A stretch of 64,000 bases of DNA from Syntrophus aciditrophicus SB. Lineage in GTDB: Bacteria > Desulfobacterota > Syntrophia > Syntrophales > Syntrophaceae. The stretch is taken from positions 1,117,001-1,181,000 of the forward strand of contig NC_007759.1 in NCBI RefSeq assembly GCF_000013405.1, in the 5' to 3' direction. Both the position numbers and the translations under genes were made by a program. Shown here piece after piece: positions 30,949 to 33,977 of the stretch. Each line of letters begins with the position of its first letter. Position 1 is the first letter of the stretch. The notes under the pieces were generated by a model. That model worked only from the letters and a program-made list of their open reading frames with translations. It was not told the DNA's origin and ran no database searches.

Positions 30949-31647
30949 TTATGGTTTTCTTTCCCCGAAGATTCCCCGCCCGATGCGCACGATCGTGGCC
31001 CCCTCCTCGATGGCGACTTCGTAATCATCCGTCATGCCCATGGAGAGTTCCCGGAGGGAAACCCGGTCGATCCGTTCCGCCGCAATCCGATCCCGCAGCG
31101 TCCGCAGAGCGGCGAAGTAAGGGCGGGCTGTTTCCGGATTTTCAAACCAGGGCGGCATGGTCATCAATCCCTCAATGGCGATGTTCTCCAGAAGGGCGAT
31201 GCTGCGGATCAGCGATTCGGCTTCCTCCGGGGCGACGCCGCTCTTTGTCAGTTCTCCTCCGCTGTTCACCTCGATCAGGACAGGAAGAACCCGGCCTGCC
31301 GCCCTGGCGCGGCGCTCCAGCTCAATGGCCAGTTCGAGACGGTCCACGGACTGGACCATATCGAAGAGCCGGACGGCGTACTTGGCCTTGTTGGTCTGAA
31401 GATGGCCGATCATGTGCCACTGCGGAGGATGGCCGATCGCTTCGATCTTTGTTTTGCCTTCCTGGATGTAATTTTCTCCGCAGAGATCGATGCCGGCCTC
31501 CAGGGCCTGACCGATCCGACTTTCCTGCACTTTTTTTGTGACAGCCATCAGCCGGATCTCCGAGACCTGTCGCCCTGCTCGGGTTGCGGCTCCGGCGATG
31601 CGTTCGCGGATTTCCGCGATATTATTCCTGATTGCTTCCTCGATCAT
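30949..31647 (-). CDS. yggS: YggS/PLPBP family PLP-homeostasis protein
   Basis: 232 residues forming the alanine-racemase-like TIM barrel alone. The PLP lysine is in RLMAVTKKVQ, followed by GENYIQEG and WHMIGHLQTNKAKY, and the C-terminal LSMGMTDDYEVAIEEGATIVRIG binds the PLP phosphate. Members keep free PLP balanced and have no known enzyme activity. ATG 31647 is set by AGGAG six bases upstream; an ATG 57 bases further upstream is inside maf without a site. The start overlaps maf by 26 bases, implying coupled translation. Confidence 0.93.
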   Translation of the reverse strand: MIEEAIRNNIAEIRERIAGAATRAGRQVSEIRLMAVTKKVQESRIGQALEAGIDLCGENYIQEGKTKIEAIGHPPQWHMIGHLQTNKAKYAVRLFDMVQSVDRLELAIELERRARAAGRVLPVLIEVNSGGELTKSGVAPEEAESLIRSIALLENIAIEGLMTMPPWFENPETARPYFAALRTLRDRIAAERIDRVSLRELSMGMTDDYEVAIEEGATIVRIGRGIFGERKP

Positions 31648-32248
31648 GTTGATCTCCTGAAAAGGTGAGGCTTCCCATGTCTTTGAGGGTTTCAACGACT
31701 TCACTGAGGGGAAGGCCCATCACGTTGGTATAGGATCCTCGGATTTCCCGGATGAAGAACGCCCCCATGCCCTGGACGGCATACCCCCCGGCCTTGTCAT
31801 AGGGCTCTTCGGAGCTGACATACCATGAGATTTCATCCTCGGGGATTTCTTTAAAGAGCACCGCGGACCGCACAACCTGGGTTCTCCGGCGTCCCTTCTT
31901 CTTCTGAATCAGCGAGAAGCCTGTATAAACGATGTGTTCCCGGCCGCTGAGCCTTTTGAGCATGTCCCGCGCCTCTCCGGGGTTACCGGGCTTGCCCAGC
32001 ATCCGGCCGGCAATCACCACGACGGTATCGGCGCCGAGAACCAGAGCATCGGGGAAGAGGGCGGCGATCATCTCCGCCTTTTCGCTGGAAAGGCGCTGGA
32101 CGTGTTCCGGCGGGGTTTCATCGTTTCTGGAGGTTTCATCCATGTGGCTGGGGATGACTTCAAAGTCGACGCCCAGAAGCTGGAGAAGCTCGGCCCGCCG
32201 CGGCGAAGCGGAGGCCAGAATCAGTTTTTCCGTCAGCATGATGCCCAT
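31622..32248 (-). CDS. maf: Maf-family nucleotide pyrophosphatase
   Basis: 208 residues. The family signature is clear: LILASASPRRAELL at the N-terminus, the catalytic Asp in VLGADTVVVI, and YDKAGGYAVQG with a final YTNVMGLPLSEV. Such enzymes hydrolyse dTTP, UTP and modified nucleotides and limit misincorporation. ATG 32248 is selected because AAGGA lies ten bases upstream; an in-frame ATG 33 bases upstream adds only charged residues. First gene of an operon with yggS and the aminotransferase. Confidence 0.92.
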   Translation of the reverse strand: MGIMLTEKLILASASPRRAELLQLLGVDFEVIPSHMDETSRNDETPPEHVQRLSSEKAEMIAALFPDALVLGADTVVVIAGRMLGKPGNPGEARDMLKRLSGREHIVYTGFSLIQKKKGRRRTQVVRSAVLFKEIPEDEISWYVSSEEPYDKAGGYAVQGMGAFFIREIRGSYTNVMGLPLSEVVETLKDMGSLTFSGDQHDRGSNQE

Positions 32249-32555
32249 AAAGGTGCATTCCTTTTTTTCCGATGTTGGCATGTCCGAAGGACCTGTGCTT
32301 GACCTGAAAGCTTATAGAGAATTGGCTGAAGGATGTCAAGGCGGCCATAAGATTTCAAGCCTCTTCTTTCGTCAATGGTTCCGTTGTGCTCTTAATTTTT
32401 TCCGACCTTGACAGGGAACGTGTATTCTCTGATTGCACCGTTGATGGATTGTGGTAAACTTCCGCTTTCCGGATAAACTTTTTCTTTCAAGGAGACAAGG
32501 CTCACGCACAAAACGGGGCGAAACAGATAATCAGATTCTGGGAGGTCAGAGAAAA
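32249..32555. other. Divergent intergenic region upstream of maf and the selenoprotein gene
   Basis: About 300 bp expected to hold promoters for maf (minus) and the selenoprotein (plus). TTGACA occurs at about 32408 on the plus strand with a poor -10. No gene is supported. Confidence 0.4.
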
Positions 32556-32882
32556 GTGAAAGGATGGTTGACAGGGCGACGGCTCTTAAAGGGAAGCATC
32601 GGTTTGATGATGATCGGGTTGGTTCTCCTTGCTCCATTGGCTCCTGCGGATGCCGCGCAATGCCTGGTCCGTTTTAATATCCCTGCCTGCATGTCCTGAG
32701 GCGGTTTCGAGAGGGTAAGTTCTATCCTCAAAAACATCAACGGCGTCATTCTCGTCGAGCGTTACGGAGATCAGGGGGTTACTGTGACCTATGACGACGA
32801 CCGGACAAGCGTAAAAAAGATGATGGAACTGCTGAAACGCAGGGGGTATCCCGTTAAAGGCATGCCGGTTTTCGTTCAGTAG
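32556..32882 (+). CDS. MerP/HMA-like periplasmic selenoprotein (CxxU), UGA decoded as Sec
   Basis: 108 codons from GTG 32556 (GGAGG ten bases upstream) to TAG 32882, with an in-frame TGA at 32697-32699 as codon 48. A signal peptide or membrane anchor covers residues about 10-34 (LMMIGLVLLAPLAPADAA). Then comes a single heavy-metal-associated (HMA) domain: strand QCLVRFNIPAC, the metal loop CMSU in the position of the usual CxxC, helix FERVSSILKNINGV, strand VTVTYDDDRTS, and KRRGYPV at the end. Reading through TGA yields a full HMA fold; stopping there leaves half a domain. A SECIS-like hairpin follows at 32711-32729. Likely a metal- or mercury-binding or redox protein. Sec is inferred, not proven. 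Confidence 0.82.
32711..32729 (+). promoter_or_regulatory. Bacterial SECIS-like hairpin for the UGA at 32697
   Basis: A 7-bp stem GAGGGTA / TATCCTC (one G-U pair) with loop AGTTC, which has a G in the first two loop bases. The loop begins 18 bases after the UGA, within the 16-37 base range known for bacterial SECIS elements, which SelB binds to insert Sec. It lies within the coding sequence as expected for bacteria. Confidence 0.65.
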
Positions 32883-32903: not shown

Positions 32904-33977
32904 CTATTCCAGATAATTCTTGAGATTTTTTTCCTCCAGGATGTCCACGATCGATTTGACCTTCTGGGAGTCGCCCCTGCGACAGATCAGCAGGGCGTCA
33001 TCCGTTTCCACGACGATCAGATCTCTGACCCCCACGAGGGCGACCAGCTTTTTGGGGCTGTAGACCAGGGAATCGGCCGATTCCACAGCGATCACCTCGC
33101 CGCGGCAGGCATTGCCCGCGAAATCTTTTTCCAGGAACTCCCAGAGGGCGTCCCAGCTTCCGACATCCGACCAGGCGAAGTTTCCGGGGATGACCAGGAC
33201 CTTGTCCGCTTTTTCCATCACGCCGTAGTCGATAGATATGGAACGGGTTTCCTCATAGGTGTCTCTCAGAACGACTTCATACTGTTCTGTGCCCAGTGCA
33301 GCTTCGAGCCTGAGCAGACCCGCGTGCAGATCGGGAAGGTGCGTTTCGATGGCCTGGAGAATGGTGGAGGTCTTCCAGATGAACATGCCGCTGTTCCAGT
33401 AAAAGGTTCCCGCTTCCACAAACGACATGGCCTGCTCCAGCGGCGGCTTTTCACGGATCGACCATACGCCGTATATGAGTTTCCCTCCGATCTGACCGAC
33501 GGGGTTTCCTCTTTCGATATAACCGTAACCGGTTTCCGGGCCGGTTGGCTTGATGCCGATGGTCACCAGAGCGTCCTCACGCTCGGCTGCTTCGGCTGCG
33601 GCTGCCAGCGTGTCCAGGAATACCCGGTCATCGGCAATCACATGGTCAGAAGGCAGCACCGCCATGACGGCGTCGCCCGCGCGACGGCGGATATGGATTG
33701 CGGCGAGGCCGATGCAGGGGGCGGTATTGCGGCCAACGGGTTCCACCAGGATATTTTCCGCGGGAATTTCCGGGAGCTGCCGTCTCAGTTCATCGGCATG
33801 AGCGGCGCCCGTGATGATCAGGGTTCGATCCGGAGGGATCAGGGAGGAGATCCGGCTCACCGTTTCCTGAATGATGGTCCGGGTTCCCGTAATGTCCAGA
33901 AGGTGCTTCGGCTTGTGCTCGCGGCTCCGAGGCCAGAATCTGGCCCCCTTGCCGCCGGCCATGATCACGGCATACAT
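32904..33977 (-). CDS. manC: Mannose-1-phosphate guanylyltransferase
   Basis: Makes GDP-mannose from mannose-1-phosphate and GTP for polysaccharide or glycan synthesis. 357 residues with only the nucleotidyltransferase domain: MAGGKGARFWPRSREHKPKH is the pyrophosphorylase signature, with further motifs NTAPCIGLAA, AVLPSDHVI, EKPPLEQA, NSGMFIWK and VIPGNFAWSDVGSW. The C-terminal isomerase domain of AlgA-type enzymes is missing; a lone domain of that type is encoded at 15954-16313. AGGAG lies 11 bases before the ATG. Convergent with the selenoprotein gene, 21 bp apart. Confidence 0.92.
   Translation of the reverse strand: MYAVIMAGGKGARFWPRSREHKPKHLLDITGTRTIIQETVSRISSLIPPDRTLIITGAAHADELRRQLPEIPAENILVEPVGRNTAPCIGLAAIHIRRRAGDAVMAVLPSDHVIADDRVFLDTLAAAAEAAEREDALVTIGIKPTGPETGYGYIERGNPVGQIGGKLIYGVWSIREKPPLEQAMSFVEAGTFYWNSGMFIWKTSTILQAIETHLPDLHAGLLRLEAALGTEQYEVVLRDTYEETRSISIDYGVMEKADKVLVIPGNFAWSDVGSWDALWEFLEKDFAGNACRGEVIAVESADSLVYSPKKLVALVGVRDLIVVETDDALLICRRGDSQKVKSIVDILEEKNLKNYLE

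Follow-up and report, generated by a model that had tools for sequence, protein, structure and literature searches.

The window, a 64 000-nucleotide stretch of the genome of Syntrophus aciditrophicus SB (order Syntrophales; positions 1,117,001 to 1,181,000 of a single contig of 3,179,300 bases), contains a small forward-strand gene, referred to below as the Sec-HMA gene, with genes for a Maf family protein and a ManC-like protein on either side (Table 1). Its frame, 32556–32882, is interrupted by a single TGA (32697–32699) and, translated with TGA as U, reads from GTG to TAG, as the original prediction had it. The translation comprises a hydrophobic leader, called as a signal peptide by inspection, and about 75 further residues bearing the motif ACMSUGG. 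The SECIS-like hairpin was likewise correctly placed, the first base of its stem being the 12th after the UGA.

Table 1. Features of the Sec-HMA locus (window coordinates).
Feature	Position	Strand	Remarks
Maf family nucleotide pyrophosphatase, upstream, divergent	31622..32281	-	TIGR00172, 202.5 bits (cut-off 117.15)
GGGAGG, Shine-Dalgarno-like	32540..32545	+	10 nt before GTG; read from sequence
Sec-HMA gene	32556..32882	+	GTG start, TAG stop, 108 codons; UGA read as Sec
Apparent signal peptide, residues 1–33	32556..32654	+	A-D-A end, signal peptidase I-like; translation inspected
Predicted mature HMA-fold domain, residues 33–108	32652..32879	+	AlphaFold2 model, Foldseek, VIA
Cys45, first residue of CxxU	32688..32690	+	Cys here in 92 CxxU sequences
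UGA codon, predicted selenocysteine 48	32697..32699	+	Aligned TGA in 115/115 Sec-type sequences
SECIS-like hairpin, 7-bp stem	32711–32717 / 32723–32729	+	Loop 32718–32722; family-invariant G at 32719
ManC-like mannose-1-phosphate guanylyltransferase, downstream, convergent	32904..33977	-	TIGR01479, 340.3 bits (below cut-off, 372.95)

Conservation of the TGA codon and the hairpin

When 395 genomes of the phylum were queried with the single protein, 22 of them yielded matches, in 23 rows. Exactly one TGA is present in 15 rows and none in eight; by eye, the latter are six HMA domains, a frameshifted piece of the family (G279) and an unrelated frame (G100). A family profile was built from 13 of the 15 one-TGA sequences and was matched by the window protein with an E value of 6.3e-33 in the search of the order genomes. 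At E ≤ 1e-3 the profile matches 111 of the 155 genomes of the order, the weakest matches including ordinary HMA domains in long frames, and at E ≤ 1e-5 it matches 103 of the 395 genomes of the phylum. Most of the weaker phylum rows fall within frames as long as those usual for P-type ATPases and thus reflect kinship to HMA domains rather than additional Sec proteins. Profile searches detected relatives of the Sec-HMA gene across the order and a sparse scatter of them in the phylum. Named genomes, when scanned, yielded 37 loci, mostly in Smithella, Syntrophaceae and unclassified Deltaproteobacteria assemblies. One family member (L206) lies on a 5.3-kb contig that is labelled Patescibacteria and is possibly misbinned.

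Rows from the order were analysed down to an E value of about 2e-10, except G423 and G506, each with one TGA. The 137 distinct matched sequences consist of 115 with one U, five Sec-free members, 15 canonical HMA domains and two fragments of members. All 115 Sec-type sequences, a set that includes a frameshifted gene (L031), a truncated gene (L173) and one gene split over two contigs (L029 and L040), contain exactly one in-frame TGA, always at the aligned motif, which is CxxU in 92 sequences, CxU in 17, GVVU in three, PSGGU and GYDSU in one each and cut short in one. The Sec-type relatives that were aligned share 25–41% identity with the window protein. Homologs with Cys in place of U, whose presence was to be checked in following up the prediction, exist in L071 and L072 (GCADC) and, in the CxU register, in L073 (ECAC) and L074 (ACDC). 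Another Sec-free member (L075, G524:C26) has the motif AIVSL, with neither Sec nor Cys, and lies ∼1.9 kb from the selB gene of the same genome.

The spacing between the UGA and the hairpin stem is constant across the CxxU members. Of 90 unique CxxU sequences, 87 form all six core pairs of the stem, 99.4% of cells being paired, and core pairing is 26–53% when the partner strand is slid by 1–3 bases; since the sequences share history, neither these counts nor those of changed pairs given below represent independent events. Synonymous recoding left all six pairs formed in a mean of 8.4 and a maximum of 17 of the 90 sequences with family codon usage (200 rounds), and in a mean of 5.2 and a maximum of 11 with uniform codon usage. 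The observed pairing far exceeds that of the recoded sequences and is thus conserved beyond the constraint imposed by the protein. Changes on both sides occur at seven of eight stem pairs, most often at 14/32 (26) and 20/26 (10), and the apical loop G is present in 90/90 CxxU sequences. In the CxxC paralogs L071 and L072, which are found in genomes that also carry a Sec copy (G438 and G418), the protein is kept and two core pairs of the hairpin are broken in each. In the window gene itself, the minimum free energy of the hairpin is equalled by 0.2% of 1000 synonymous recodings and a 7-bp stem arises in 460 of 20000 (2.3%). Taken alone, the window hairpin is a suggestive signal of moderate strength; it is the family alignment that proves the pairing to exceed chance.

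The source genome encodes the machinery for Sec insertion: selA (615 bits), selB (374 bits), selD (380 bits) and selC (tRNA-Sec; 77 bits, with a UCA anticodon identified by ARAGORN), four genes whose presence had been proposed as a check, all score over their cut-offs. The selD gene itself contains one in-frame TGA. Within the order, selB was found in 141 of 155 genomes and in 91 of the 92 good ones, so that its co-occurrence with the Sec-HMA gene is uninformative. The only genome of the order that is at least 90% complete and at most 5% contaminated and in which selB was not found (G206) also lacks a Sec-HMA gene. Ten genomes have a Sec gene and no detected selB (G412, G423, G444, G445, G450, G490, G505, G519, G520 and G532); they are incomplete (67–92% complete) or mildly contaminated, and we infer that selB is missing from the assembled sequence.

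Two explanations would dispense with Sec altogether. The gene could be a metal-binding gene broken by a stop codon through sequencing error, a pseudogene or a case of plain readthrough, a suggestion to which its small size, its occurrence as a single gene and its weak similarity to characterized families lend some colour. However, the same TGA recurs in all Sec-type sequences from many assemblies, the frame and the protein are kept on both sides of it and the hairpin is conserved beyond the protein constraint, so that such a reading is refuted to the extent that sequence allows and we regard a broken gene as highly improbable. That TGA has been reassigned throughout the genome, to Trp or Gly for example, is more improbable still; nothing was found in favour of this idea and it was rejected: 39 of the 115 Sec-type genes terminate at TGA, which must thus still serve as a stop in a code that is unchanged as a whole, the other genes of the window read normally with table 11 and the genome carries tRNA-Sec and selB. 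The conserved TGA, the family-wide hairpin, the Cys homologs and the complete set of sel genes instead argue for a selenoprotein gene, in agreement with the original prediction.

Fold and metal-site motif of the predicted protein

An AlphaFold2 model, computed from the window protein and 30 relatives taken from the 37 named-genome loci, with Cys substituted for Sec in the input, has a pLDDT of 92.6 and a pTM of 0.81. The modelled domain is predicted to adopt the β-α-β-β-α-β HMA fold. The top match in Foldseek is MerP (PDB entry 1osd; E = 7.6e-5, TM score 0.78), VIA ranks 3dxs (Z = 11.6) about equal to 1osd (Z = 11.5, 71 residues, 2.0 Å) and HMA domains dominate among the matches listed by both programs. 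The MerP-like, or HMA-like, character originally ascribed to the domain is therefore supported by the model, MerP being its nearest match. Sequence profiles detect the relationship weakly. The window protein is unmatched by Pfam PF00403, to which seven of 31 proteins (the window protein and 30 relatives) match at E ≤ 0.01 (best 3.4e-7), and no NCBIfam model reaches its cut-off for the window protein. The other 30 proteins give weak NCBIfam E values only (best 2e-9) and probably also fall below the cut-offs.

The position of Sec within the fold was assessed from its spacing in the sequence to the GV turn. In canonical HMA domains the first Cys lies 16 residues before the G of this turn in 13 of 15 sequences, which places the second Cys 13 residues before it. 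In the CxxU members U lies 15 residues before this G in 81 of 91 sequences by pattern, those exceptions that were inspected being pattern artefacts or sequences without GV, and in the CxU and GVVU members with a GV turn it lies 16 residues before (by eye for GVVU). On this register Sec stands at the position of the first HMA Cys or one residue later, and not, as was originally proposed, at that of the second. Forcing CxxU onto CxxC requires paired gaps: with U read as C, the HMMER alignment has to insert two residues on one side and delete two on the other, and the gap-free register to the GV turn is preferred.

None of 113 members has a Cys at the second-Cys position of the HMA domain, and in only one of the 113 does any Cys follow U in the matched stretch. 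Five members lack a Cys before U: the GVVU proteins L039, L098 and L099, together with L027 and L163. The GMxCxxC metal site is not present in Sec-HMA members, its motif having been replaced. Because the register of Sec is shifted, the second Cys is absent and five members have no upstream Cys, the motif reads as a site rebuilt in the same loop rather than as CxxC with one sulfur exchanged for selenium.

Relation to known families

MerP (TIGR02052), which shares with the window protein a stand-alone HMA domain and, by inspection, a signal peptide, is its best NCBIfam match (30.2 bits, E = 4.7e-7) and is matched at E ≤ 0.01 by 30 of the 31 proteins. The score of the window protein is, however, far below the cut-off of 92.55 bits. 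In contrast to MerP, Sec-HMA proteins lack GMTCxxC, carry Sec at the first-Cys position or at +1 and have no second Cys, and the window gene is not part of a mer operon. Membership in the MerP family was rejected on these grounds of score, motif and the lack of a mer operon in the window. CopZ/Atx1-type copper chaperones have the same fold (Z of about 10–11) and sequence similarity to the Sec-HMA proteins, but the window protein (25.3 bits) is far below the CopZ cut-off and differs from these chaperones in lacking the canonical CxxC and, by inspection of its leader, in being exported rather than cytoplasmic.

Several selenoprotein families offer partial likenesses. The UxxU metal-binding (seleno)protein NF041115 is likewise a small selenoprotein with a metal-binding fold and is weakly matched by 17 of the 31 proteins; the window protein, however, has one Sec rather than two and scores 16.7–17.8 bits against a cut-off of 95, and membership was rejected. 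The MerT/CopZ fusion-like selenoprotein NF045683, matched by one of the 31 proteins (E = 0.0025), also combines Sec with soft-metal transport but is by name a membrane transporter or fusion. The C/SxxU putative mercuric transport selenoprotein of PF02411, again a case of Sec in soft-metal transport, is likewise set apart by name as a membrane transporter or fusion (PMC13188914). For SelW-like and other CxxU selenoproteins of the thioredoxin fold, the comparison covered the structural matches listed, most of which are HMA domains. Table 1 of PMC13188914 (2026) lists 119 prokaryotic selenoprotein families, including the PF02411 and NF041115 families, and among these 119 there is no entry that fits Sec-HMA. 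Table 3 of PMC1794560 gives 19 selenoproteins for S. aciditrophicus, with no HMA protein among them. Table 2 of PMC2398784 contains a selenoprotein named 'Mercuric transport protein MerP' (two sequences from one sample, zero Cys homologs), whose name suggests an HMA protein with Sec and which may represent a Sec-HMA relative recorded earlier. In the part of the literature covered by text searches, no description of the family was found. Sec-HMA most likely represents a new family of selenoproteins built on a known fold.

Genomic neighbourhood and possible function

The genes neighbouring the Sec-HMA gene in the window are maf, yggS, the manC-like gene and an rlmI-like gene. Among 120 loci, for which the counts are lower bounds since the flank length varies by locus, a Maf homolog lies upstream in 64 (divergent in 63), a ManC-like gene lies convergently downstream in 61 and a YggS homolog lies upstream in 53. 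The maf/manC-like synteny in about half of the loci points to an old, stand-alone locus. Operon context is mostly uninformative about function, the window gene standing alone between the divergent maf and the convergent manC-like gene. No metal transporter or mer gene was recognized among the recurrent neighbours, few of which were checked against family models. At L174–L186 the inverted repeat GCAAATtnnATTTGC lies ∼60–70 nt before the start codon and overlaps a promoter-like stretch; it is conserved in several Smithella-type relatives and was not seen in the window.

A few loci have exceptional neighbours, which hint at redox or folding. At L082, L145 and L146 a CxU-type gene and a gene for a secreted TxxU peroxiredoxin lie side by side, sharing a strand but with no fixed order; the peroxiredoxins carry a signal peptide, and those of L145 and L082 match the AhpC/TSA Pfam family over its cut-off. 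As a single genus accounts for both L082 and L146, the adjacency amounts to two independent cases. Of 17 CxU sequences, three have this neighbour, and a scan of CxxU loci with the same pattern revealed no further case. Upstream of the Sec-HMA gene, L082 (at 67 nt) and L146 (in two frames, the nearer at 54 nt) encode a dihydrolipoyl dehydrogenase/MerA-like enzyme. A gene for a PpiD/SurA-like peptidylprolyl isomerase lies upstream on the same strand at six loci (L154, L162, L165, L167, L168 and L171), 16–22 nt from the Sec-HMA gene in five of the six.

The best explanation overall, to which we give a probability of about 0.85, is that the Sec-HMA gene encodes a small, probably exported selenoprotein with the HMA fold. 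SelB bound to the hairpin would deliver Sec-tRNA at codon 48 and the product would be exported to the periplasm, with its selenolate placed in the β1–α1 loop, where HMA proteins hold their metal; most members would present a new Cys three residues before Sec, the canonical second Cys having been lost. As to what such a protein does, our tentative preference, with somewhat less than an even chance of being right, is a periplasmic ligand for soft metals (Hg, Cu or similar) that resembles MerP or CopZ and has a relocated Cys-Sec site. Selenolates bind soft metals tightly, and this role is favoured because, in addition, the fold and the nearest relatives are those of metal carriers. The complete absence of the second HMA Cys and the five members without an upstream Cys speak against it, as does the finding that the recurrent neighbours included no recognized metal transporter or mer gene.

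A redox role is made nearly as likely by the loss of the second Cys, by the members in which Sec stands alone and by the neighbouring Sec-peroxiredoxins: the protein would be a true selenoprotein whose HMA fold has been turned to selenol redox chemistry, its Sec (together with Cys in members that have one) reducing extracytoplasmic partners such as the secreted Sec-peroxiredoxin or forming mixed selenosulfides with them. The CxxU and CxU motifs, the GVVU members in which Sec stands alone, the dehydrogenase/MerA-like gene at two of the peroxiredoxin loci and the PpiD-like folding factor at six others would all fit such a role. However, the modelled domain is HMA rather than thioredoxin-like among the matches listed, an internal Cys-Sec bond is impossible in the Sec-only members, the peroxiredoxin accompanies just a few CxU genes and the window gene stands alone. 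A bolder form of the idea, in which an HMA carrier has become a non-thioredoxin-like selenol redox carrier that is conserved across this order of syntrophic anaerobes and works outside the cytoplasm, with its metal motif dismantled and Sec at the helix N-terminus in the same loop, whether or not a new Cys accompanies it, is doubtful. We consider it improbable that the protein handles selenium itself, as an extracytoplasmic binder of selenide, selenite or methylselenol that hands its cargo on; the near-universal use of Sec in the order, as judged from selB, and the core, stand-alone character of the gene are compatible with this, but no selenium-transport neighbour was seen and we know of no precedent in the HMA fold.

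If translated as read, the Sec-HMA genes would constitute a widespread family of Sec proteins that is dropped by standard annotation, in bacteria that are central to methane-producing consortia. Sec would then occupy a position of the metal-chaperone fold that is normally without Cys. CxxU, CxU, Sec-only and CxxC forms all occur naturally in the family, and the presence of Sec and Cys copies within some genomes would allow a direct test of what selenium contributes to a soft-metal or redox site.
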